Positions 46,483-64,000 of a stretch of 64,000 bases of DNA are shown in pieces. The stretch's first letter is position 1. Each line of letters starts with the position of its first letter. A model generated the notes under the pieces. That model was not told the origin of the DNA, did not search any database, and worked only from the letters and a program-made list of their open reading frames with translations. The stretch covers positions 1,490,606 to 1,554,605 of the forward strand of contig CP051234.1 in NCBI GenBank assembly GCA_017792465.1. Direction: 5' to 3'. Both the position numbers and the translations under genes were made by a program. This DNA comes from Filomicrobium sp. GTDB taxonomy: Bacteria > Pseudomonadota > Alphaproteobacteria > Rhizobiales > Hyphomicrobiaceae.

Positions 46483-47031
46483 TCAAGACTTCGCCGGGGT
46501 CTGCGCCTGCGCCGTTTTCTTGCACAACGTCGATTTCAGGCTTTCATGATCGGAAAGGTTCTGCCAGCTGGCGTTTGTCGGAACCCCGTCATCGCCGAAC
46601 TTCGTTGCGGCAACGATCTCGGCGAAGCGCTGATTGCGGCAGTCGACCAGCACGCTCACGTCTTCACTTGAGACGTTTCTCGTCACGCGCATGAGCCGGA
46701 CCAACTGCAGGTCGGGCGCCTTGGGATTGACGCGGGTCGAGCCCAGATCCACGGCATCGAAACGATAGATCCTGGGAATAGCGTAGGTCCAAGGCTGATA
46801 GGGCATGCTGGTGGCATAGGTTCTGACGACTTGCAGACGCGTCGGTAAGGCGCCTGCGGCGCGCTCGTACCAGCTATACTCATCGTAGATGGTGTAGCTC
46901 AGCATACCTGCTGCGGCTGCCAGCGGGTAAATAGCGACAGGCGGCTTCCAACCGAAGGGGCGAGCAATCGCATAGACCGCACCGGCAGCGATCGCTCCCA
47001 TCGCGAAGGTTGTCAGCAGCAGATAAAACAT
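46483..47031 (-). CDS. Conserved hypothetical membrane protein
   Basis: I do not recognise this 182-residue protein. It starts with two hydrophobic segments (LLLTTFAMGAIAAGAVYAIA and VAIYPLAAAAGMLSYTIYDE), so it is anchored in the inner membrane, and the rest is a soluble domain of about 130 residues. Visible motifs are YDEYSWYERAAGALP, YQPWTYAIPRIYRFDAVDLG and VLVDCRNQRFAEI, with Cys residues in the last two thirds. The gene has normal coding character and faces the L,D-transpeptidase across its terminator. Confidence 0.6.
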   Translation of the reverse strand: MFYLLLTTFAMGAIAAGAVYAIARPFGWKPPVAIYPLAAAAGMLSYTIYDEYSWYERAAGALPTRLQVVRTYATSMPYQPWTYAIPRIYRFDAVDLGSTRVNPKAPDLQLVRLMRVTRNVSSEDVSVLVDCRNQRFAEIVAATKFGDDGVPTNASWQNLSDHESLKSTLCKKTAQAQTPAKS

Positions 47032-47149: not shown

Positions 47150-49009
47150 CTAGCGCGCGCCAATCTGATGCGAACTCGACAGCGCGGACTGGATCGTTTT
47201 GACGACCTGGAAGGCCTTCTTTAACTGATCCCGCTCCAAGTGCGAAATCTCATTCAGGCTCATATAGTTATCGGGCTTGCTGCCGGACCGGATCTGGCGC
47301 GCCTGATGACGCAGACGGGTGATGGCGATGAACTCGAAAGCGGCCAGGAGATCTGCTGCTCCAGCCGCGCTCATGACGCTGGCTGAGCGGCCCTGTTCCA
47401 GCCGGCTGTGGGTGTTGACCTCTGTAATCGCAGCTTCGAGAGCGTAGACGCGGGCAATGTCGACGACCGGCACGACGCCGTTCTGTTTCAGATTGATGGT
47501 GCCGCGATGCTCGCCGCCTTCGGTGGAGAACGTTCCAAAAAAGCCCAGCGGCGGCCGGTGTGTCAGGGCGTTGCTCAACAGGTGCGCGACAAAGATCGAG
47601 TTCTTGCGGGCGCGTTCGAGCGTGCCTCTTTGCAATTCGTCGAACAGTTCGCGGGGACCGTGGATCGGACGCAAGTCGAACATGACGCTGGCCAGCATCT
47701 GCGCCTTGGGCCCTGGATGGTCGATCCAGTCGACAAAGTAGCTGCGCCACTTGGAGACCGGCTGACGCCAATCGGGGTTGGTCGCCATCATGTCGCCGGG
47801 GCAATAGAAATAGCCGCACTCGTTGAGACCGTCGCTCAGGAATTGCGCGAAGTCCTTGAAGTAGGCTCCGTGGGCAGCTTCGTTGTAGCTATCGTCGATG
47901 ATGAGGCAGTTGTCCTGGTCAGAGACGCCGGTCTGCTCCTGGCGGCCCTGCGATCCACAGGCGGCCCAGACGTAAGGCACCGGTGGCGGACCAAAGCGCT
48001 GTTCGGCCAGCGTGATGAGGCGATGGGTCAGGGCATCGCAAATGGAGGTGATGATGCGACCGATCTTGTGGGCCGATGCACCGCTTTCGACGAGCGAAAC
48101 GAGAAGCTCGGGGATCTGGCGCACGACTTCGGCCATATCCGAGACTTTCTCGAAGCGGTGGATCTCGCCGATCATGTAGACGGCCGATCGCGATTGTGCG
48201 CGTACGAGGTTGGTGTGGGTCAGGATGCCGACGAGTTTGCCGTCGCTGACGATCGGCAAGTGCGAGATGTCGCGATGCATCATCAGGACGAGGGCATCGA
48301 ATGCGAGCGCGTCGCAATCAAGCGTGGTGATCGTCGTCGACATGAAGTCGTCGATGGGCCGGCTTGAATCGGCGGCTTCGGCGACGACGCGGTTGCGCAA
48401 GTCTGTGTCGGTCATCATGCCGATGACCTTGCCCTCCCTCACAACCGGGAGACAGGATACGCCGTGCTTGCGCATGAGGCGTGCGGCATCGATGACCGAC
48501 GTTCCCGGTTCGACCGAGATCGGACCGGCGGTCATGAGATCGCGGGCGGTGCTGATCATCATGTCGATGGCTGCATCGCGCTCGCGGGCGGTCGACGCAT
48601 CCGAGCTGCCACGCTCAAAACCGACCGGCTCGAATTGGCTGCTGAAATCGGGGATGCGATCTTTGAGGGCGAGGAAATCGGCTTTTGGCAGTGCGAGGAC
48701 TGTTGCGTCTTCGGTTGCGACGGCCCGGTAGCTGGCGCGGCTGCCGCTTTCGATGGCGCGGACGCCAAAGACGTCACCTGATTTCAGGCGGGCGAAAATC
48801 TTGCCGGTCGCCGAGCGCACTTCGACGAAACCCGACTGGATGATGTAGACGTGTTCGACGGGGCGGCCCAATTCAACGACTGCCGATCCTGTCGCATGGG
48901 TCTCGGACGTCAGCTTGGCTGCAAGTTCCAGCCGATCCGGTTCTGGCAGTGCCGCAAACCCCTTCACGGTGCCCAGTGTGGTCGCAATTTCCTGAACGGT
49001 GGGTTGCAA
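47150..49009 (-). CDS. cNMP-binding / dual CBS / DUF294 nucleotidyltransferase-like signalling protein
   Basis: The 619-residue cytosolic protein has a cyclic-nucleotide-binding-like domain (residues 15-125), two CBS motifs (160-285: ARLMRKHGVSCLPVVREGKV and HRDISHLPIVSDGKLVGILT), a DUF294 nucleotidyltransferase-like domain with GSQGRQEQTGVSDQDNCLII at 352-371 (Gly-Ser and Asp-x-Asp kept), and a DUF294 C-terminal domain. The start is TTG 49009, supported by GGAGG seven bases upstream. Relatives sit next to VC_2705-type symporters and DnaQ-like exonucleases in other proteobacteria, as here. The substrate is unknown; GlnD-like protein nucleotidylation is a hypothesis. Confidence 0.85.
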   Translation of the reverse strand: MQPTVQEIATTLGTVKGFAALPEPDRLELAAKLTSETHATGSAVVELGRPVEHVYIIQSGFVEVRSATGKIFARLKSGDVFGVRAIESGSRASYRAVATEDATVLALPKADFLALKDRIPDFSSQFEPVGFERGSSDASTARERDAAIDMMISTARDLMTAGPISVEPGTSVIDAARLMRKHGVSCLPVVREGKVIGMMTDTDLRNRVVAEAADSSRPIDDFMSTTITTLDCDALAFDALVLMMHRDISHLPIVSDGKLVGILTHTNLVRAQSRSAVYMIGEIHRFEKVSDMAEVVRQIPELLVSLVESGASAHKIGRIITSICDALTHRLITLAEQRFGPPPVPYVWAACGSQGRQEQTGVSDQDNCLIIDDSYNEAAHGAYFKDFAQFLSDGLNECGYFYCPGDMMATNPDWRQPVSKWRSYFVDWIDHPGPKAQMLASVMFDLRPIHGPRELFDELQRGTLERARKNSIFVAHLLSNALTHRPPLGFFGTFSTEGGEHRGTINLKQNGVVPVVDIARVYALEAAITEVNTHSRLEQGRSASVMSAAGAADLLAAFEFIAITRLRHQARQIRSGSKPDNYMSLNEISHLERDQLKKAFQVVKTIQSALSSSHQIGAR

Positions 49010-49321: not shown

Positions 49322-51097
49322 TTAGTGATCGACTGCAGCAGCAGCGCCACGCGGCACGCGGATCGATTCGACCAGATCCTGAATGTGCTGTGGTGGAGCA
49401 GACGTTGCTGCTGAGACAACGTAAGCAACAATGAAGTTCACGACAGCACCGATGCAGCCGAATGCTTCAGGCGAAACGCCCATGATCCAGTGCTCTGGCG
49501 TCGAAGCCGGGAAGATCGCGGTGCCAGGGATGAAGAACATACCCTTGTAGGCAAAGATGTAAGCGAGCGTCACACCGATGCCTGCGACCATGCCGAGGAT
49601 CGCCCCGTGGTTGTTGATGCGCTTGGAGAAGATGCCCATCATCAAAACCGGGAAGATCGAGGACGCAGCCAGACCGAACGCCAAGGCCACAACCTGAGCG
49701 GCGAAGCCAGGTGGGTTGAGACCGAAGTAACCGGCCACCGCAATGGCACCTGCCATCGCTATTCGTGCGGCCAGCAGTTCCCCGCTCTCAGATATGTTCG
49801 GTGTCAGAATGCCTTTCATCAAATCGTGCGAGATCGACGACGAGATGGCCAGCAACAATCCGGCAGCCGTTGATAGAGCGGCAGCCAGACCACCAGCAGC
49901 AACCAGAGCGATCACCCAGTTTGGAAGGTCTGCGATTTCAGGGTTGGCGAGAACCATGATGTCGCGGTCGAACTTGGTGAGTTCGTTACCCTGCCAGCCC
50001 TTTTCCTGAGCCATCGCCTGCATGGCAGGCGATTTCTCATTGTAGAACTGGATCTTGCCGTCGCCGTTCTTGTCCTCGTACTTCAAGAGACCGGTCGTTT
50101 CCCAGTTTTGGAACCACTGAGGAAGGTTATCGATAGCGACCGGCTCAGACTGAACGCCATTCGGCCAAATCGTGTTGGTGACGTTGTAGCGAGCCATTGC
50201 ACCAACAGCCGGAGCGACCGTGTAGAGCAGTGCGATGAAGACCAGGGCCCAGCCTGCCGACCAGCGCGCATCCGAAACCTTTGGAACGGTGAAGAAGCGG
50301 ATGATCACGTGAGGCAGACCCGCGGTACCGATCATGAGGGTGATCGTATACAGCAGCATATCTAGGTAGCTTGGAGGGTCCCCGTCATAGGCCCCGAAGC
50401 CAATCGCCTGAATGGTCTCATTCAATTTCGCGATCATCGGCATCCCTGAAGATGTTTCGTTGCCGATGAGGCCAAGCTGCGGAAGCGGGTTGCCGGTGAG
50501 GTTCATCGAGATGAAGACTGCCGGGATCGTGTAGGCTGTGATCAAGACGCAGTACTGAGCGATCTGAGTATAGGTGATGCCCTTCATGCCCCCAAGAACG
50601 GCATACAAGAAGACGATCGCCATACCGACGTAAAGACCGGTTTCGTAAGGAAGGTCGAGGAAGCGTGAGAAGGCGACGCCGACGCCCTTCATCTGACCGA
50701 TAACGTAGGTGATCGAAATCGTAATGAGGCAGAGAACGCCGACAAGGCGTGCCGTGCGCGAATAGAACCGGTCGCCGATGAACTCAGGAACCGTGAACTT
50801 GCCGAACTTACGAAGGTAAGGCGCAAGCAGCAGTGCCAGAAGCACGTATCCGCCGGTCCAGCCCATCAAGAACTTTGCGCCCTGATAACCCTGGAAGGCG
50901 ATGAGACCGGCCATCGAAATGAACGATGCCGCCGACATCCAGTCAGCGGCCGTCGCCATACCGTTAGCGATCGGGTTGACGCCGCGGCCTGCGGCATAGA
51001 ACTCACCGGTGCTGCCGGCACGAGCCCAAAATGCGATACCAATGTAGAGCGCAAACGTCGCGCCTACAATGATATAGGTCATAGTCTTGAGATCCAT
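49322..51097 (-). CDS. Sodium:solute symporter large subunit, VC_2705 type (ActP-like)
   Basis: The 591-residue protein has about 13 membrane segments of the SSS fold with EFYAAGRGVNPIANGMATAA and DWMSAASFISMAGLI near the N-terminus, as in acetate permease ActP. Residues 305-395 form an insertion between membrane segments with an EF-hand-like loop at 342-354 (DKNGDGKIQFYNE). The family normally imports small carboxylates with sodium; the substrate here is not determined. The DUF4212 gene lies 20 bases upstream on the same strand, the usual small/large subunit pair. Confidence 0.88.
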   Translation of the reverse strand: MDLKTMTYIIVGATFALYIGIAFWARAGSTGEFYAAGRGVNPIANGMATAADWMSAASFISMAGLIAFQGYQGAKFLMGWTGGYVLLALLLAPYLRKFGKFTVPEFIGDRFYSRTARLVGVLCLITISITYVIGQMKGVGVAFSRFLDLPYETGLYVGMAIVFLYAVLGGMKGITYTQIAQYCVLITAYTIPAVFISMNLTGNPLPQLGLIGNETSSGMPMIAKLNETIQAIGFGAYDGDPPSYLDMLLYTITLMIGTAGLPHVIIRFFTVPKVSDARWSAGWALVFIALLYTVAPAVGAMARYNVTNTIWPNGVQSEPVAIDNLPQWFQNWETTGLLKYEDKNGDGKIQFYNEKSPAMQAMAQEKGWQGNELTKFDRDIMVLANPEIADLPNWVIALVAAGGLAAALSTAAGLLLAISSSISHDLMKGILTPNISESGELLAARIAMAGAIAVAGYFGLNPPGFAAQVVALAFGLAASSIFPVLMMGIFSKRINNHGAILGMVAGIGVTLAYIFAYKGMFFIPGTAIFPASTPEHWIMGVSPEAFGCIGAVVNFIVAYVVSAATSAPPQHIQDLVESIRVPRGAAAAVDH

Positions 51098-51117: not shown

Positions 51118-51378
51118 TTATTCTTCGTCGACGTTAAATTGACGATCGATGCCGTTCATCATCACTGCATAGACAAAAATCAGGATGAGGAAGACGTAGA
51201 TCGAACCATTCTGAGCCATCCAGAAGCCGAGATCGACGCCACCGACCTTGATGCCCATCAGCATCGGCCGGAGAAGAATACCCATTCCGAATGAAACGAA
51301 CGCCCATATGGCGAGAAGTACTGTGACGAGCCGAATATTGGCCGCCCAGTATTGTTTGCCGGATTCATCACTATCCAT
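51118..51378 (-). CDS. DUF4212 small subunit of sodium:solute symporter
   Basis: The 86-residue protein contains KQYWAANIRLVTVLLAIWAF and DLGFWMAQNGSIYVFLILIF, two membrane helices typical of the DUF4212 family, and ends in an acidic tail (FNVDEE). Genes of this family precede VC_2705-type symporters, and the product is thought to be an accessory subunit. It is divergent from the receiver gene at 51733. Confidence 0.88.
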   Translation of the reverse strand: MDSDESGKQYWAANIRLVTVLLAIWAFVSFGMGILLRPMLMGIKVGGVDLGFWMAQNGSIYVFLILIFVYAVMMNGIDRQFNVDEE

Positions 51379-51732
51379 AGCCTTGGAGTTCTCCCCTATG
51401 CCGCCCCTTATTGTGGAGCGCGCGGTTTGCTGACTTCGCCTCTATTATCTTCGAGGCGAACCACCCCTACCAACGAATGGGGCTAGCGGCACAATTCCAA
51501 ATTCTACAAAAGATGCAACGATCCATTAGTCGTGCGCAGGATGAATTTTGCTCTTAAAAAACTTCTCTACTGATTTGTTTTTATTCGACCATCCCTGTTT
51601 TTGCGCTGCAGCATTGCAAGTGCGAGAAGACTGACGGGACGGTGTCAGATCAATGACAATTGCTTAATAGTGGTGACTGTCTGCAATTTTGAGTGCAACA
51701 AAAACGAAATACAATTTGGAGGAGCGCGCAGT
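51379..51732. promoter_or_regulatory. Divergent regulatory region of module 1 with an inverted repeat
   Basis: This 354-bp region separates the symporter pair (leftward) from the receiver/exonuclease pair (rightward). It is more AT-rich than its flanks. An inverted repeat TGTCA-N6-TGACA lies at 51643-51658, about 75 bases before the receiver ATG, and could be an operator. GGAGG before 51733 is the ribosome site. I found no convincing -35/-10 pair. Confidence 0.5.
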
Positions 51733-52134
51733 ATGGGTGACTCTGATAACAAAAGGTTCGTGCTCGTCGTCGATGACGAACTCAATCTTCGCAAAGCGAT
51801 GCAGTACATCCTCGAGCACCAAGGCTATCGCGTCGACAGCGCATCGGATGGCAACGAAGCTCTCGTGAAGATCAAACAGAACCCGCCGGACCTCGTTCTG
51901 CTCGATCTCCAGGCGCCGACCTGCAGCGGCTATGACGTCTGTCAATCGGTTCGTGCCGACCAAGCCCTCAACCGGGTCAAGATCTTGATCTTCAGCGCAC
52001 TCGGCAAAGACATCGCCGTGGAAAAGGCGATGGCGCTGGGAGCCGACGGCTACGTCCTGAAACCGTTCTGCACCGCAGACCTCATCGATACGGTTGGCAA
52101 ATACTGCGGGCAGGGCGAAATTCAGAATGCTTGA
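51733..52134 (+). CDS. Stand-alone receiver-domain response regulator
   Basis: The 133-residue CheY-like protein has VLVVDDELNLRKAMQYILEH, the phosphoacceptor Asp58 in VLLDLQAPTCSGYDV, a Ser at the switch position (ILIFSALGKD) and the conserved Lys in YVLKPF. There is no output domain. ATG 51733 is supported by TTGGAGGAG upstream; the open frame before it is not conserved. Its end overlaps the sensor-exonuclease gene by eight bases, so the two are co-translated and probably interact. Confidence 0.9.
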   Translation: MGDSDNKRFVLVVDDELNLRKAMQYILEHQGYRVDSASDGNEALVKIKQNPPDLVLLDLQAPTCSGYDVCQSVRADQALNRVKILIFSALGKDIAVEKAMALGADGYVLKPFCTADLIDTVGKYCGQGEIQNA

Positions 52135-54256
52135 TAAATACAGCCTCCGCGTCCGCTTCGCGCTGTTTTTCGCGCTCATTGCTGTTGCCGTTCCCGTCGT
52201 CATCACCGTCGCATTGACGCTGGCCGCACAGCGGATGGACGACAACCCTGTGTCGCAACTTGTGCTCTTCGGCGGGCTGGCGAGCTTTGCGCTCATCGGC
52301 ATCGTCGCCTGGGTTGCGCAATTGTTCGACACACACGTTGCGCGCCCCATCGTGACGGTCTCGCGTGACCTGCAAACGTTGATGCACGCCAATCCTGAGC
52401 ACACGGTCGATACGGACGAGGCGCGTTATCTGGGCGTCCTTGGACCGACGGTGCGCGAAGCCAGCGAGACGATGAAACGGCTGCGCAGCGACATTGGCAA
52501 GGAAGTCGAAGCCGCCACCAAGTCACTCGATGAAGAGCGCGTTCGCCTTGAAACAGTTTTGCGCGATCTCAATGAAGGCGTCATCGTCTGCGATCTCGAT
52601 CATCGGGTTCTGCTTTACAACCGCCGGGCGCTGCAGGCGCTCGCCGGCGTCGGCGATCTGGGGCTTGGCCGGGAGATCTTCTCGGTCGTCAACCGAACGC
52701 CCTTTCGCAATACCCTTGAACGGCTGAGCAACCGGTTGAGTTCAGGCCGCTACAAGAACCATCCCGATCACCTGATGGCGCCGCTCGTTTTCGCGACTCG
52801 CCTGGGCAAGACCATCCTACAAGGCAAGATGAGCCTCATTATCGATGAGGCGGAAGAAAGCCCGCAAGGCTATGTCCTGACCTTCTCGGACGCGACCGAG
52901 CAGATTTCCAAGCTTGCAACACGCGACAAGCTCTTGCGTGAAGCGCTGGAGGGATTTTGCGGACCGGTTGCCAGCATCCGGGCGACGGCCGACCTGCTTG
53001 TGCAATCACCTGACATGCCGGTCGAGGTGCGTCGCGGTTTCGAAGCTGCGCTGTCGCAGGACGCCGCCGATCTGACCGATCGCATCGTCAAGATGACGGA
53101 CGACTACCGCTCGATCAAGACCAGCCTCTGGCCGATGAGCGACGTCAATTCGGCCAACGTCCTGAGCTGCCTTTCTCAGCGTTACCGAGACCATCCGGTC
53201 CTGCGTTGCGACGTCAGCGGGGAGCCCTGCTGGATGCATTGCGACAGTAGCGCCATCATTGAGCTGATGGACCATCTCATTCGCGGCGTCCTGGGATACA
53301 CCGGCGCGCAGACGTTTACGCTGCAGGCGGCGATGACGGGCAACAGGCGCTATCTGGAAATCGTCTGGAAAGGCACGCCAATTCCGGCCAGCGAAATCGA
53401 TAGCTGGCTTAGCGAAGAGATCGAAAGCGGCGTCGGGGCCATGACCGGGTACGATGTTCTCGATCATCATCGTTCGGATGCCTGGTCGGAACCCGTCGAT
53501 GAGACGCACGCCCGTTTGCGGCTGCCGATGCCGGAGCCCGATACGGAGCATTCCCAGCATGTCAGCGGTGCGCTTCCGATCCGGCTGGAGTTTTATGATT
53601 TCGGATTGCTGCAACGCCAGGAAGCTGTCGGCGATCTGGGCGCGCGGCGGCTGCGCGATCTGACCTACGTTGTGTTCGATACGGAGACAACCGGTCTTGA
53701 GCCAAGCAACGGCGATGAAATGATTTCGATTGCCGGTGTCAGGATCGTCAACGGCCGCGTTCTGACGGGTGAATACTTCGACCGCCTGATCGATCCTGGC
53801 CGACCGGTCCCGGCGCGCTCGACGCAGGTGCATGGCATCTCGAACGAGATGGTTGCGGGCCAACCGCCGGTGCATGAAGTGCTGCCGCGTTTCCGCGATT
53901 ACGTCGGCGACAGCATTTTGGTCGCGCATAACGCGGCGTTTGATTTGCGCTTCATCGAGCTGAAGGAAAAAGAGACCGGTGTGCGGTTCGACAACCCGGT
54001 TCTGGATACCGTTCTGCTTTCTGCAATCGTGCACGATCACACCGATCAACACACGCTGGATGCCGTTGCTGAACGCTTCAACATCGAGATCCCCGAAGAG
54101 AAGCGTCATACGGCACTGGGAGACTCGATTGCGACCGCGCTCGTATTCGTGAAGATGATCGACCTGCTGGAGGCCAACGGCATCCACACGCTGGCGGAGG
54201 CGCAGGAGGCTTCAGAGAAACTGGTCCAGATCCGGCGGCGGCAGGCGGCGTACTAA
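52127..54256 (+). CDS. Membrane PAS/degenerate histidine kinase fused to a DnaQ-type 3'-5' exonuclease
   Basis: The 709-residue protein has two membrane helices (about 9-33 and 46-66), a HAMP-like linker (67-125), a PAS domain (140-255: ETVLRDLNEGVIVCDLDHRV), a kinase-like region (265-480) and a DEDDh exonuclease (513-680). In the kinase region the usual H-box is FCGPVASIRATADLL with no phosphoacceptor His, and the ATP lid glycine motifs are not recognisable, so kinase activity is doubtful. The exonuclease keeps all key residues: Asp518 and Glu520 (FDTETTG), Asp606 (HNAAFDLRF), His661 and Asp666 (HTALGDS). ATG 52127 lies inside the end of the receiver gene. The role is unknown. Confidence 0.85.
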   Translation: MLDKYSLRVRFALFFALIAVAVPVVITVALTLAAQRMDDNPVSQLVLFGGLASFALIGIVAWVAQLFDTHVARPIVTVSRDLQTLMHANPEHTVDTDEARYLGVLGPTVREASETMKRLRSDIGKEVEAATKSLDEERVRLETVLRDLNEGVIVCDLDHRVLLYNRRALQALAGVGDLGLGREIFSVVNRTPFRNTLERLSNRLSSGRYKNHPDHLMAPLVFATRLGKTILQGKMSLIIDEAEESPQGYVLTFSDATEQISKLATRDKLLREALEGFCGPVASIRATADLLVQSPDMPVEVRRGFEAALSQDAADLTDRIVKMTDDYRSIKTSLWPMSDVNSANVLSCLSQRYRDHPVLRCDVSGEPCWMHCDSSAIIELMDHLIRGVLGYTGAQTFTLQAAMTGNRRYLEIVWKGTPIPASEIDSWLSEEIESGVGAMTGYDVLDHHRSDAWSEPVDETHARLRLPMPEPDTEHSQHVSGALPIRLEFYDFGLLQRQEAVGDLGARRLRDLTYVVFDTETTGLEPSNGDEMISIAGVRIVNGRVLTGEYFDRLIDPGRPVPARSTQVHGISNEMVAGQPPVHEVLPRFRDYVGDSILVAHNAAFDLRFIELKEKETGVRFDNPVLDTVLLSAIVHDHTDQHTLDAVAERFNIEIPEEKRHTALGDSIATALVFVKMIDLLEANGIHTLAEAQEASEKLVQIRRRQAAY

Positions 54257-59462: not shown

Positions 59463-61295
59463 CTAGTTGCGGCGACGGTCCTTCTGGCGCTGCATGCGGG
59501 TCTCACGGTCATAGAGGATTTCACCGCCGGGAACGCGGACGTCGCGGACAAGCTCCAGCGAGTGGCGCGATGGGGCCAACGTCATCTTGCTGACGGATAT
59601 GAGGGCTGCGATACCTGCCGGAACGGCGACGACGGCGGCCAACGCGCTATGCAGAGCGATGAGTTCGGCTTCAGCGGCGAGAATGACCAGGACGGCCACC
59701 GAAAAGCCTGTGACGATGCCGGCCAGCGCTCCGAATTGATTGATCCGTTTCCACCAAATCGATGCGACCAGGACGGGAAAGCCGGTCGAAGCCGTCAAAG
59801 CCAGGGCCCACAACAAGAGCTTCAGGGCATCGCCCTTTGCCAGGAGCGCGATAAGGCCGCCGAAGATCGCAACCAGGATAATCATGAGGCGGGCGACGCC
59901 CAGGCGCAATTTTGTTGCCGGCGGCTGCCAGTCGAGGCCGTTGATGATGTCTTCCGACAATGTGCCAGCCAGCGCCAGCGTCGCCGCACTGGCGGCTGCG
60001 AAAGCGGCTGCGACGAGGCCGACGGCGGCGAGGAATGCGAAGACTTCCGGAAGACCGGCCGCATAAGGCAGGGCGAGAATCGTAGTGTCCCTGTCGAATA
60101 GGATATTCGACATCTCAAGCAGATTGCCGCGCGAATTCACTTCGACGAGGCGCGCGCTAATCAGGTTGCGCAGCCATTCGGGAGGCGCTGCAATCGAGCC
60201 GCCGACCGCCTCCATCAGGAAATGGCGCATGAAGGCCGCAATGGTGATGGCGGTGATCATGATGCCGCCGAAAAAGAAGCTGGCCCAGCCGAGCGTCTTG
60301 CGGGCTTCGTAAACGCCGGGCGTCGTTGCGACCCGCGGCAGGACCCAAGGGGCTGCGGCAACGCCCATCATCGTTGTCAGCATCGCAAAGGTGTAAGCGA
60401 GAGGACCAACCGCCCCGAAGGGTTCGTAAAATCGCTTGGCGACGGCTTGAAAGCCATCTTGCGGCAGATCGATGCCAAGCGGCGATTGGATGAAGATCGG
60501 CACGGCTGCCAACGCTTCAGAGCGGCCAACGGCCCGGATCAATGGGCCATGGCTCAGTTGCGGCATGGGGAGGTATCCCAGCAAAACCGCGACAACTGAA
60601 ATGGGCACGACAAGCGCCAGGATTGCAGCCACCGACGTGGCGACGCTCGACCAGGTCAAGGCGCGCATGCCGCCGAAGACCAATCCGCATGCGACGGCCA
60701 TCACCATGACCGCCACCGCCAACGGCTTGCCTTGCCCCAGCAGCCGGTCGATGGCTGCAGCACCGATGCTAACTTCAGCGGCGATCATCAGCAGCGTCGG
60801 CACGGCCAGCAAAGCGGCCGAGGCAATCCGGACGTTGCGGCTGTCAAACCTGCGGCCGAGATAGGTCGGCAGGGTGAATGCCCCGAACTTGCGAAAGAAG
60901 GGGGCGAGCAGAACGGCCATGATCACGAACCCGGCCAGCCCGCCGGAGAGGAGCCAGAAGGCATCGAAGCCGATGATGAAGAATGCGCCGGTCATACAGG
61001 CGATGCCGGTGGCGCCGAGCGTGGAAACCGCCAGACCGACGCCGCAATAGACGGCCGGCACACGCCGGCCGGCGGCAAAGAAATCCAGGGCATCGTTAGT
61101 TGAGCTTGCAACTGAGATCGTCAGCAGTGCGGACAATGCGCCAACCAGCATCGTCAGGCCCAGGATGCCCCGGGAGATGCCCATTTGTTCGAGCATCAAG
61201 AGGATGAGGACCAGAGCGCAGAACGCGCTGGCAAATATACCGAAATAGATCCCAAGACGCGGGTTGATGAAACGGGCGCGTGGCGTGAACGTCAT
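59463..61295 (-). CDS. Second sodium:solute symporter, large subunit
   Basis: The 610-residue protein has about 13 membrane helices of the SSS fold, with ALDFFAAGRRVPAVYCGVGL and LPTYLGRRFDSRNVRIASAA near the N-terminus. It is a paralogue of the product at 49322-51097 but lacks the EF-hand-like insert and has an extra N-terminal helix pair (FGIFASAFCALVLILLMLEQ). This form is the MctP/ActP-like type found beside LuxR regulators and hybrid kinases. The substrate is inferred, from context only, to be a short carboxylate. The small subunit gene lies 85 bp upstream. Confidence 0.85.
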   Translation of the reverse strand: MTFTPRARFINPRLGIYFGIFASAFCALVLILLMLEQMGISRGILGLTMLVGALSALLTISVASSTNDALDFFAAGRRVPAVYCGVGLAVSTLGATGIACMTGAFFIIGFDAFWLLSGGLAGFVIMAVLLAPFFRKFGAFTLPTYLGRRFDSRNVRIASAALLAVPTLLMIAAEVSIGAAAIDRLLGQGKPLAVAVMVMAVACGLVFGGMRALTWSSVATSVAAILALVVPISVVAVLLGYLPMPQLSHGPLIRAVGRSEALAAVPIFIQSPLGIDLPQDGFQAVAKRFYEPFGAVGPLAYTFAMLTTMMGVAAAPWVLPRVATTPGVYEARKTLGWASFFFGGIMITAITIAAFMRHFLMEAVGGSIAAPPEWLRNLISARLVEVNSRGNLLEMSNILFDRDTTILALPYAAGLPEVFAFLAAVGLVAAAFAAASAATLALAGTLSEDIINGLDWQPPATKLRLGVARLMIILVAIFGGLIALLAKGDALKLLLWALALTASTGFPVLVASIWWKRINQFGALAGIVTGFSVAVLVILAAEAELIALHSALAAVVAVPAGIAALISVSKMTLAPSRHSLELVRDVRVPGGEILYDRETRMQRQKDRRRN

Positions 61296-61641: not shown

Positions 61642-61963
61642 TGGCTGCCTTTCTGGTGGGGCTGCGTTGGAGCCCGCTCAAGCCCTGACAAACATCAGTC
61701 TTTGTGGCTTTGCTCGAAAAATGTCCGCTCGGGCACGAATTGATCAGCCCTGCGTACAATTCATGGATAACAGAGTCCAAATTCATGGCAAACTTGCCAC
61801 AGGGCACAGCATGTTGCTTAATTCAGTTTCTGTGTCGGTTCTAAGGCTTAACACCTAGGTGTATTGCCAAACGCAGTTTCGGGCCAGGCACAGCGACGTC
61901 ATCGGCCAAAAAGGCAATGGGCGCCAGGATAATCATCACAACGAACGTCTAGGGAGGCGTTAC
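61642..61963. promoter_or_regulatory. Divergent regulatory region of module 2 with two palindromes
   Basis: This 322-bp region separates the symporter pair from the LuxR-type regulator. It holds TGGCAA-AC-TTGCCA at 61786-61799 and the perfect 12-bp palindrome ACACCTAGGTGT at 61851-61862. Both are of a size suited to a dimeric regulator, most simply the adjacent LuxR-type protein. GGAGG at 61953-61957 is the ribosome site for 61964. Confidence 0.55.
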
Positions 61964-62620
61964 ATGGCGGGTTACCGCATCACTATCGTCGACGATCATC
62001 CGCTCTTTCGCGGCGCCTTGAACCAGGCTTTGAGCGCTTCCATGGATGCGGATTTTACCGAAGCCGGATCACTGGACGAGCTGAACGATCAATTGTCTGC
62101 GGACAAGAATATCGATCTCATTCTCCTCGATCTCAATATGCCGGGCGTGCAGGGACTTTCCGGGCTGATGTTTTTGCGTGCGCAATATCCCGAAGTCCCG
62201 GTTGTTGTGTGTTCGGCCAACGAGGACCCCGGTACGATCCGGCGGAGCATCGAGTTCGGCGCTTCGGGGTATATCCCTAAATCGCAGCCGATCGACCAAA
62301 TTCGCGAAGCCGTCGCCAAGGTGCTTGGCGGGGAAGTCTGGACGCCGCCGGATATCAACCTGTCGCAAGAACTCGATGAGGAAACGTCCGACATGCTGGC
62401 GCGGCTGTCGACGCTGACGCCGCAGCAGGTTCGCGTCCTGATGATGCTTGGCGAAGGTTTGTTGAATAAGCAGATTGCCTACAAGCTGTCGGTCTCGGAA
62501 GCGACCATCAAAGCGCACGTCTCGGCGATCCTGCAGAAGCTTGGGGTCGATAGCCGCACGCAGGCGGTGATTGCCGTCAATAAGATCGACAACCGGGATT
62601 GGCAGAACGCGGCGGGCTGA
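61964..62620 (+). CDS. LuxR/NarL-type response regulator (CrbR/AgmR-like)
   Basis: The 218-residue protein has a receiver domain (RITIVDDHPLFRGAL, phosphoacceptor Asp56 in LILLDLNMPG, Ser in VVVCSANED, Lys in GYIPKSQP) and a C-terminal NarL-type helix-turn-helix (LTPQQVRVLMMLGEGLLNKQ, IAYKLSVSEATIKAHVSAIL). ATG 61964 follows AGGGAGG. Regulators of this group control acetyl-CoA synthetase, acetate uptake or alcohol oxidation genes in other bacteria. Its neighbours (symporter and hybrid kinase) fit that pattern. Confidence 0.88.
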   Translation: MAGYRITIVDDHPLFRGALNQALSASMDADFTEAGSLDELNDQLSADKNIDLILLDLNMPGVQGLSGLMFLRAQYPEVPVVVCSANEDPGTIRRSIEFGASGYIPKSQPIDQIREAVAKVLGGEVWTPPDINLSQELDEETSDMLARLSTLTPQQVRVLMMLGEGLLNKQIAYKLSVSEATIKAHVSAILQKLGVDSRTQAVIAVNKIDNRDWQNAAG

Positions 62621-62731: not shown

Positions 62732-64000
62732 TTATTCGGCTGCCGTTCGCTGACTTTGCAGCATCCGGTTCATCAAGGCCCGCAATGCTGCCGCCTTCAA
62801 CGGCTTGCGCAACAGGCCGACGTTTTCGTCTCTAATAAGCCGCTCGACCTCCGGCGTGTGATCGGCCGTGATGATGATCGCGGGCAGGTCGGTCTCAAGT
62901 TCGGCGCGCAGCGCTCTGATAGCTTCCAGACCCGTGCCGAGATCGAGATGGTAATCCGCCAAGACGATATCGGGACATCCCAGCGGTCCCTTGACGGCCT
63001 TTAGCGCCAGGGCAGAACTTGGCGCCGTGTGCACCTCACACCCCCAGCCTGACAACAAAGATTCCATCCCAGCGAGGATGGCAGGTTCATTATCGATGCA
63101 AAGAATGCGGTAGCCAGCCAGCGTGCCCATCGTTTGCTGAGCCGGTTTGGCGTCGGCGGACTTGGTGGCTTGCGCGGCTGCGCGTTCCAAAGTCACGGAG
63201 AATGCCGAACCGGTTCCGGCCCGCGAGGACAATCCAATCGGGTGCTTGAGGATCTTACAGATGCGGTCGACGATCGACAGGCCGAGACCGAGGCCGGAGA
63301 CAGTTGAGCCTGCCCCTTCAAGGCGCTGGAACTCGCGGAATACCAGTTCGCGCTTGTCCTCGGGAATGCCGGGGCCGGTGTCGAGCACCTGGATCACAAC
63401 CTCGTCGCCCTTGCGGCGCGCACCGAGCAGGACCTTGCCCTGACGGGTGTACTTGATGCCGTTGGACACAAAGTTCTGCAGCACCCGCCGCAGCAAACGG
63501 CGGTCTGAATGCACCCACAATGTCGACGGGACGATTAAAAGTTCGAGCCCCTTTTCGGTTGCCGCCGGCTGGAAGTCGACGCGCAGGTTTTCGAACAGCT
63601 CTCCCAGCGAAACCGGCTCGATGTCGACGCTGAGCCGCCCGGCATCCATGCGCGAGATTTCAATGAGGGCTGAGAAGATTTCTTCGACCGCGTTCAAGGA
63701 GGCGTCGACGTTCTTGGCGAGACCGGCGGAACTGTCATCAAGCGGGCGCTCAATGAGGCTCGTCGCATAAAGGCGGGCGGCGTTAAGCGGCTGGAGGACA
63801 TCGTGGCTGGCGGCTGCCAGGAACCGTGTCTTGTCGAGGTTGGCGGCATCCGCCTTGGCCTTGGCGTCTTCGAGTGCGGCGTTCAGATCCAGAAGTTCTG
63901 CGGTCCGTTCGCGGACGCGCCGCTCAAGCGTTTCATTGGCGCGGGCCAGGGCTGAGGCTGCCGCGACGCGGTCGGTGATGTCGGAGAATGTCGTCACGAT
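62732..64000 (-). CDS. Hybrid sensor histidine kinase with C-terminal receiver (5' end cut by window edge)
   Basis: The visible 422 codons begin inside the end of a PAS domain (TTFSDITDR), then a coiled-coil (LERRVRERTAELLDLNAALE), an H-box with the phosphoacceptor in FLAAASHDVLQPLNAARLYA, and an ATPase domain (QNFVSNGIKYTRQGKV, LDTGPGIPEDK, GLGLGLSIVDRI). A receiver domain follows (ILCIDNEPAI, phosphoacceptor Asp in DIVLADYHLDLG, Lys in LLRKPLKAAALR). The coding frame continues past base 64000, so the N-terminus is missing. The DVLQPL form of the H-box is typical of NahK/CrbS-like kinases. It converges on the LuxR-type regulator, its likely partner. Confidence 0.9.
   Translation of the reverse strand: MVTTFSDITDRVAAASALARANETLERRVRERTAELLDLNAALEDAKAKADAANLDKTRFLAAASHDVLQPLNAARLYATSLIERPLDDSSAGLAKNVDASLNAVEEIFSALIEISRMDAGRLSVDIEPVSLGELFENLRVDFQPAATEKGLELLIVPSTLWVHSDRRLLRRVLQNFVSNGIKYTRQGKVLLGARRKGDEVVIQVLDTGPGIPEDKRELVFREFQRLEGAGSTVSGLGLGLSIVDRICKILKHPIGLSSRAGTGSAFSVTLERAAAQATKSADAKPAQQTMGTLAGYRILCIDNEPAILAGMESLLSGWGCEVHTAPSSALALKAVKGPLGCPDIVLADYHLDLGTGLEAIRALRAELETDLPAIIITADHTPEVERLIRDENVGLLRKPLKAAALRALMNRMLQSQRTAAE

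Follow-up and report, generated by a model that had tools for sequence, protein, structure and literature searches.

What does a nuclease do at the end of a membrane-bound histidine-kinase fold that has lost its catalytic residues, and to which signal might it answer? This question is raised by a gene in 64,000 nucleotides of Filomicrobium sp. DNA (GCA_017792465.1, contig CP051234.1, positions 1,490,606 to 1,554,605; this whole stretch is called the window here), whose product joins membrane helices, a HAMP-like linker, a PAS-like part and a dead kinase region to a DEDDh exonuclease, and which overlaps the gene of a stand-alone receiver. The answer we favour, at about an even chance, sees the fusion as the output of a two-component pathway in which the receiver acts on the nuclease via the pseudokinase. 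The parts concerned are:

51733..52134, forward strand: stand-alone receiver, overlapping the fusion by 8 bp (Response_reg, E 1.2e-26)
52127..54256, forward strand: transmembrane-(HAMP-like)-PAS-pseudokinase-DEDDh exonuclease fusion, 709 residues (open reading frame, Pfam, alignment, model)
52139..52333, forward strand: predicted two-helix membrane anchor, helices at residues about 5-37 and 41-69 joined by a very short loop (hydropathy, model helices)
52574..52897, forward strand: PAS-like domain, residues about 150-257 (weak Pfam matches, a relative's PAS_9, model strands and helices)
52898..53125, forward strand: DHp-like two-helix part without phosphoacceptor, Glu275 replacing His (model, profile, alignment)
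53126..53551, forward strand: CA (ATPase-like) part without N-box Asn and G1 Asp; W414, W427 and H448 conserved
53660..54253, forward strand: PolC/DnaQ-type DEDDh exonuclease domain, residues 512-709 (RNase_T, E 3.2e-33)

Sequence and model together establish the domain make-up, the loss of the kinase residues, the nuclease motif and a recurring neighbourhood of receiver, SLC5-type kinase and nucleotidyltransferase. The fusion gene opens with an ATG at 52127 and closes with a stop codon at 54254-54256; a TTG 33 bp 5' would extend it, and the nearest homologues align from the ATG. Since the receiver gene (ATG at 51733, preceded by GGAGG; stop codon at 52132-52134) ends at 52134, the two share 8 bp, and the gene coordinates agree here with an initial annotation of this DNA. 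An AlphaFold model of the entire fusion, built from a 76-row alignment, has a mean predicted local distance difference test (pLDDT) of 88.6; in Foldseek its HAMP-PAS-DHp-CA part is matched best by WalK (9.5e-20) and VicK (3.4e-15), its C-terminus by the exonucleases PolC, DnaQ and DinG.

The initial annotation had described a kinase-like region that lacks the phosphoacceptor His, and this holds. Pfam returned no HisKA or HATPase_c match, be it with the whole window protein or with its kinase region alone; searched against the PDB, a 76-row profile of the region matches histidine kinases (E 9.9e-12), so the label kinase-like is right. Profile comparison (hhalign) recovers the histidine-kinase fold at E 2.5e-20 and aligns the pseudokinase over 215 columns with the cores of neighbouring SLC5 kinases. 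Modelled by itself (pLDDT 93), the region is predicted to form a DHp hairpin followed by a Bergerat-type alpha/beta fold, for which Foldseek matches include HK853-RR468 (3.1e-11), DivL (2.0e-10), RetS and the RetS-GacS complex. Because the DHp-CA angle is flexible, several structural matches have a root-mean-square deviation (rmsd) above 8, and weight is put on the CA-only matches (rmsd about 3) and on the sequence profiles. The H-box of the fusion reads E275-G-F-C-G-P280, with position 275 aligned to the phosphoacceptor His of intact kinases. Of the 93 relatives aligned (L092 with a shortened kinase region, L131 cut by a contig end) none has this His and 76 have Glu or Asp in its place, the N-box Asn occurs once each at aligned positions 383 and 387, and Trp occupies the G1 Asp position in all 93. 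Neither profile search nor alignment thus reveals a canonical phosphoacceptor with ATP-binding boxes, and a canonical active kinase is ruled out by the lack of any Pfam kinase domain and of the catalytic residues. Judged by its residues, the kinase part is predicted to be unable to autophosphorylate; dephosphorylation is improbable too, as Gly279 sits where phosphatase-competent kinases carry Thr or Asn. Other positions are kept, namely W414 (93/93), W427 (92/93), H448 (89/93) and, despite the loss of the His, the Arg three residues past the H-box position (H+3; 87/93), in a region whose identity to the window protein is 15-62% and often about 20%.

The exonuclease, by contrast, has all its motif residues in place. 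Pfam RNase_T covers residues 515-674 (E 3.2e-33), and Asp518, Glu520, Asp606, His661 and Asp666, which the initial annotation had listed as present, form a DEDDh set that is intact in 93/93 aligned relatives, with no loss seen across homologues. In the predicted structure the domain superposes on the PolC exonuclease (9qpc; 32% identity) with an rmsd of 1.4 over 189 columns, and 2p1j is matched at E 3.5e-30. We therefore regard the nuclease as a predicted DEDDh exonuclease with intact motif, which shares motif and fold with the PolC/DnaQ proofreading exonucleases but differs from them in having no polymerase part and in being membrane-anchored together with signalling domains. Since catalytic loss and the DEDDh pattern are common to 93 relatives and the kinase fold is supported, the fusion represents a conserved family.

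The N-terminal half bears on whether the fusion is itself a sensor. Two hydrophobic segments lie close to the N-terminus in 73/76 aligned rows, and hydropathy and model helices agree on the two-helix anchor proposed earlier; the predicted periplasmic loop between them has a few residues only. The PAS domain stood in part: it is visible as a PAS-like part in the predicted structure and a Paracoccus denitrificans relative exceeds the PAS_9 cut-off (28.2 bits vs 27), while the window protein gives weak PAS matches at 140-260, the best of which (PAS_8, E 0.013) stays under the cut-off. For the HAMP-like linker, the predicted helix-connector-helix pattern and the WalK/VicK match of the whole model speak in favour, and a Pfam scan of the fusion found no HAMP match. 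So the proposal of a nuclease under a sensory membrane protein survives as to pseudokinase and intact nuclease, but with so short a loop the fusion is probably not the main sensor; an intact SLC5-type histidine kinase, encoded separately, is a likely kinase for the receiver.

How far does this arrangement extend? A one-genome-per-species scan with a 13-row alignment returned at least 555 stretches that encode a relative, of which the best 80 loci were kept; all counts out of 80 refer to these, neighbours were found by tblastn with the window proteins, and because flanks end at contig ends, neighbour counts are lower bounds. This survey of PAS-exonuclease fusions, which the initial annotation had suggested, yielded 75 relatives that are 30-74% identical and belong to several classes (the nearest among the matches listed being Filomicrobium at 74%), which rules out a local artefact or chance fusion. 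Among the best 80 are Azospirillum, Rhodobacterales, Azonexus, Thauera, Accumulibacter, Ectothiorhodospira, Pseudomonas MMS21 and Magnetococcales as well as 'Deltaproteobacteria', Nitrospirota and Caldilineaceae; many loci, those of the last two groups included, come from metagenome bins in which contigs may be misplaced. In the window's family (103 genomes) matches run well past the exonuclease in 10 genomes of 3 genera (G000, G018-G020, G022, G024, G075-G078; some are contig-end fragments), and three genomes of the window's own genus (G015-G017) have an exonuclease-CBS-DUF294 protein in place of the fusion. A class sample of 289 genomes contains at least 7 with the full fusion, and among 72,556 plasmid records 35 match it, 20 of these over 80% of the protein. 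For the 20 of the 35 plasmid matches listed, the annotation is 'exonuclease domain-containing protein', '3'-5' exonuclease', 'DNA polymerase III subunit epsilon', 'hypothetical protein' or none, so that the sensory two thirds of the protein go unnamed; annotation greatly understates how widely the fusion occurs.

The receiver travels with it. Found within the fetched flanks at 70/80 loci, it lies directly upstream on the same strand at 68, which bears out the link between fusion and overlapping receiver seen in the window and makes it less likely that the receiver regulates some other gene only; at 57 of these 68 the nearest possible fusion start (ATG, GTG or TTG, a lenient measure) is at most 20 nt from the receiver stop. 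Including that of the window, the receivers keep the phospho-Asp in 67/69 and the Lys in 69/69. An intact SLC5-type histidine kinase is encoded at 32/80 loci, 31 of which also have the receiver upstream; it lies upstream on the same strand at 23 (in L097 in the order kinase, receiver, fusion), downstream on the same strand at 8 and on the other strand at 1. Strong HisKA and HATPase_c matches were found in 9/9 of these kinases scanned, SSF above the cut-off in 3/9, and the phosphoacceptor His in 21/21 aligned. Where no such kinase adjoins the fusion, 20 of 48 loci were tested and 18/20 genomes encode one elsewhere (E <1e-100). The background rate in the class sample is at least 64/289 genomes, with 6/7 fusion genomes against 58/282 others; as scoring covered three candidates per genome, the 7 and the 64 are lower bounds, and Fisher tests on genomes treat related genomes as independent. 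Four of the 18 remote kinases, and that of the window, match over the SLC5 part alone, up to residue about 656-721, and have frames of 1168-1424 residues; by sequence, these are of the CrbS-like hybrid kinase type. The window's own pair reads:

61859..62620, forward strand: LuxR-type response regulator, called CrbR-like from its position and domains only (Response_reg and GerE)
62732..64000, reverse strand: SLC5-type hybrid histidine kinase, C-terminal part, running off the window (1180-residue frame, genome C1:1553790-1556861)

A second, diverged VC_2705-like symporter (59463-61295; 265.8 bits against a family cut-off of 320.75) lies near this CrbS/CrbR-like pair.

The gene set of intact kinase and intact receiver beside the nuclease is thus present in part of the family, and it occurs as one gene row on plasmid 1 of P. 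denitrificans PD1222, where PDEN_RS25395 (CBS-DUF294), RS25400, RS25405 (SLC5 kinase), RS25410 (receiver) and RS25415 (fusion) overlap by 4, 4, 11 and 4 bp. RS25405 (901 residues; HisKA 5.1e-21, HATPase_c 6.2e-29, SSF below the cut-off) is 55% identical to the SLC5 kinase of L069, and RS25415, recorded as 'exonuclease domain-containing protein', is a 706-residue fusion with 34% identity over residues 109-705. The remaining gene of the row, RS25400 (L169 5357-5602), encodes 81 residues without a Pfam family.

How might a receiver speak to a dead kinase? In Caulobacter, the kinase CckA is under control of DivL. The partner read by this pseudokinase is DivK, a single-domain receiver, in its phosphorylated state, and substitutions in the kinase-type docking face of DivL (R553A, T557N, Y562A, H579E) weaken DivK~P binding (PMC4211667). 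Like the fusion, DivL combines PAS with a HisKA-type DHp-CA fold without phosphoacceptor His and has a stand-alone receiver as partner, and both fold and profile searches match it (4q20); it differs in carrying Tyr550 at the phosphoacceptor position, whereas the fusion family has mostly Glu or Asp there, has lost the ATP boxes and is fused to a nuclease. By analogy, the family's Arg at H+3 corresponds to DivL R553, and receiver binding by the fusion is what we propose. An SLC5-transporter histidine kinase would phosphorylate the stand-alone receiver on sensing a solute, probably some small carboxylate; in the membrane-anchored pseudokinase the receiver would dock on the DHp part, and docking would alter the PAS-DHp-CA dimer and so switch the DEDDh exonuclease at the membrane. 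That the kinase feeds the receiver, that receiver and pseudokinase bind, the sign of the effect, the substrate and the role of the nucleotidyltransferase we infer; the dead kinase part is the more likely site at which the receiver acts on the nuclease, and a signal that reaches a nuclease without a transcription factor step is plausible.

Several observations weigh against this pathway. Mutual information over 69 receiver-fusion pairs places 11 of the top 100 pairs on the DHp part, where 12.1 are expected, and the excess in the same test falls on the PAS part (fusion residues 140-257; 34 of the top 100 vs 16.5 expected), which may reflect ancestry or a real contact. The window protein itself is one of the 6/93 without the H+3 Arg (Cys278). 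At 12/80 loci no receiver is directly upstream (the contig of L131 begins at the fusion), at 48/80 no SLC5 kinase lies within the fetched flanks, and two of the 20 genomes tested (L112, L090) have none at E 1e-100. The closest SLC5 kinase found in the window is the hybrid kinase about 8.5 kb off, which adjoins its own LuxR-type regulator, so the receiver's kinase is not certain. Finally, L038 and L039, which lack the pseudokinase, still adjoin both receiver and SLC5 kinase.

Such shorter forms bear on what the pseudokinase is for. In a tree of 126 exonuclease domains, the transmembrane-exonuclease proteins L040/L041 group with the full form L034 (95/89), the transmembrane-PAS-exonuclease proteins L042/L044 with full L086 amid Rhodobacterales (99/87), and the EamA-transporter-exonuclease proteins L043/L045 with L039 (96/92). 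Because shorter forms branch beside full ones, the tree suggests that the pseudokinase was lost repeatedly; its root is not settled, long DnaQ-like branches lie inside it, and it neither resolves many of the deep forks nor places L038 and L046. L043 (G289:C75) and L045 (G383:C54) join, in one frame of about 500 residues, a multi-helix EamA/DMT-like transporter (named by eye) to the same DEDDh exonuclease. A receiver is nearby in 2/9 pseudokinase-less loci (L149 and L150, that is L038 and L039) and absent from 7/9, against 74/86 full forms (68/80 plus 6/6 of L162-L167), a difference with a Fisher value of 1.3e-4 that is only a guide since related genomes are not independent rows. Excluded from the 2/9 are L158-L161, whose exonucleases sit in a separate clade and which have no receiver match either; the receiver of L153 (about 5.8 kb off, other strand) was not counted and that of L164 (beside the SLC5 kinase, not the fusion) was; the region of L151 is short. 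All nine pseudokinase-less loci have DUF294. In L161 (G250:C20) a transmembrane-PAS-exonuclease gene lies between two separate DUF294 genes.

These forms lend some weight to an unlikely rival, an autonomous membrane sensor in which the PAS part or the membrane helices switch the nuclease directly and the receiver is merely co-regulated. The fusion does have a PAS-like part and two membrane helices, transmembrane-PAS-nuclease forms without pseudokinase and mostly without receiver exist, so that a PAS-nuclease unit can stand alone, and the coevolution excess sits on PAS. Yet there is almost no periplasmic part to sense with, the receiver keeps its place directly upstream in most loci, and passive coupling leaves unexplained why a catalysis-free pseudokinase fold is kept across classes. 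We consider it rather improbable that the pseudokinase hetero-dimerises with the SLC5 kinase, as RetS does with GacS, and thereby recruits the nuclease to the sensor or tunes receiver phosphorylation: the RetS and RetS-GacS matches, the 215-column alignment with neighbouring kinase cores and the adjacency of the two genes in 32/80 loci and in P. denitrificans would fit, but 18 of the 20 genomes tested encode the SLC5 kinase apart from the fusion, and the receiver, by contrast, is directly upstream in 68/80. Equally improbable is a leftover dimerisation spacer in a fusion with constitutive nuclease, since low identity of the region and the existence of forms without it are countered by its conserved Trp, His and Arg residues and by a receiver that is usually retained together with the pseudokinase.

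If the receiver does act via the pseudokinase, which substrate would the nuclease have? Upstream of the receiver, the window encodes:

46483..47031, reverse strand: 182-residue protein without Pfam family (relatives in 24/80 loci)
47150..49009, reverse strand: cNMP-binding-CBS-DUF294 nucleotidyltransferase-DUF294_C (Pfam; conserved neighbour)
49322..51097, reverse strand: VC_2705-family sodium/solute symporter (TIGR03648, E 1.7e-249)
51118..51378, reverse strand: DUF4212 small symporter subunit, divergent (Pfam)

At the 80 loci the flanks contain DUF294 (56), symporter-like (50), DUF4212 (33) and the 182-residue protein (24), whose gene often separates that of DUF294 from the receiver. Of the 41 strong DUF294 genes in the window's family, 28 have an exonuclease match at most 10 kb away, and several of the remaining 13 are on other contigs of fragmented assemblies; 18 of those 28 have both in one open frame, and in G075 and G078 they are separate genes. 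Weak DUF294 matches in frames of about 1000 residues are probably GlnE. The same one-frame order, exonuclease-CBS-CBS-DUF294-DUF294_C-like, is seen in L012, L014, L020, L022, L027, L028 and L051 (domains by eye and by a DUF294 search, the latter without L051), and the set includes a species of the window's genus without the pseudokinase fusion. Since nucleotide-adding and nucleotide-removing enzymes share one chain, their sequences suggest opposing action on one substrate. A parallel may be GlnD, a uridylyltransferase with HD phosphodiesterase and ACT domains, in which adding and removing activities reside in one protein; here DEDDh would replace the HD domain and CBS or cNMP-binding the ACT. 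DUF294_C has been grouped with the C-terminal domains of GlnD and GlnE (PMC3710099). In a bolder version, which we hold more tentatively than the core pathway, SLC5 kinase, receiver and pseudokinase-exonuclease would thus work with the GlnD-like CBS nucleotidyltransferase as an adder/remover pair, one adding and the other removing nucleotides at a shared substrate, perhaps an RNA 3' end or a nucleotidylated protein, and would tune carboxylate uptake and use post-transcriptionally.

Work on Pseudomonas offers the nearest functional data. In P. putida, pp_0353 (an RNase_T exonuclease) forms an operon with pp_0354 (a CBS protein) whose promoter is bound by ErdR, homologues lie beside actP in P. 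aeruginosa, and growth on pyruvate is delayed in the pp_0353 mutant as in mxtR and erdR mutants; the authors propose mRNA decay and leave other mechanisms possible (PMC9927547). The two systems share the exonuclease-CBS pairing, but for pp_0353 the available text names no membrane, PAS or pseudokinase part (PMC9927547). CrbS/CrbR and other SLC5 histidine kinases, too, have an SLC5-transporter kinase in control of carboxylate use (PMC5715377; PMC9100948), with a DNA-binding regulator as output, whereas here a receiver without output domain adjoins the nuclease; Pflu5625, a cAMP-CBS-nucleotidyltransferase, belongs to the CrbS/R regulon (PMC5715377). On the other side, there is no pyruvate defect in the pp_0354 mutant, no acetate impairment in either the pp_0353 or the pp_0354 mutant (PMC9927547) and no phenotype in the pflu5625 mutant in the setting used (PMC5715377), and mutants without matching defects argue against an obligate nucleotidyltransferase-nuclease pair. 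As for CrbR sites, a loose pattern of its ACTU inverted repeat, drawn from published examples, matches 19 times in the window vs 14.9 expected, and none of the matches falls in the 51379-51732 region. A literature search found nothing on DUF294 together with an exonuclease and no description of a pseudokinase-exonuclease fusion, a weak absence with most subscription journals outside the search but in keeping with the earlier statement that the fusion has no established function; by term search, a paper on the signalling helix makes no mention of nucleases (PMC1592074), and PMC5436829 has no match to any of the terms looked for.

In the module that emerges, a receiver without output domain travels with an intact kinase of the transporter type and with a nuclease fused to a dead kinase. 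Response regulators mostly act on transcription or second messengers. Should the receiver indeed act through the pseudokinase, a nuclease would join the outputs of two-component signalling and the family would be a second, widespread example of a histidine-kinase fold put to new use in reading a receiver. A phospho-signal would then reach nucleic acid (or nucleotidylation) without a transcription factor, via a kinase turned receiver-reading allosteric switch, and a nutrient signal would switch a nuclease, not only a gene.

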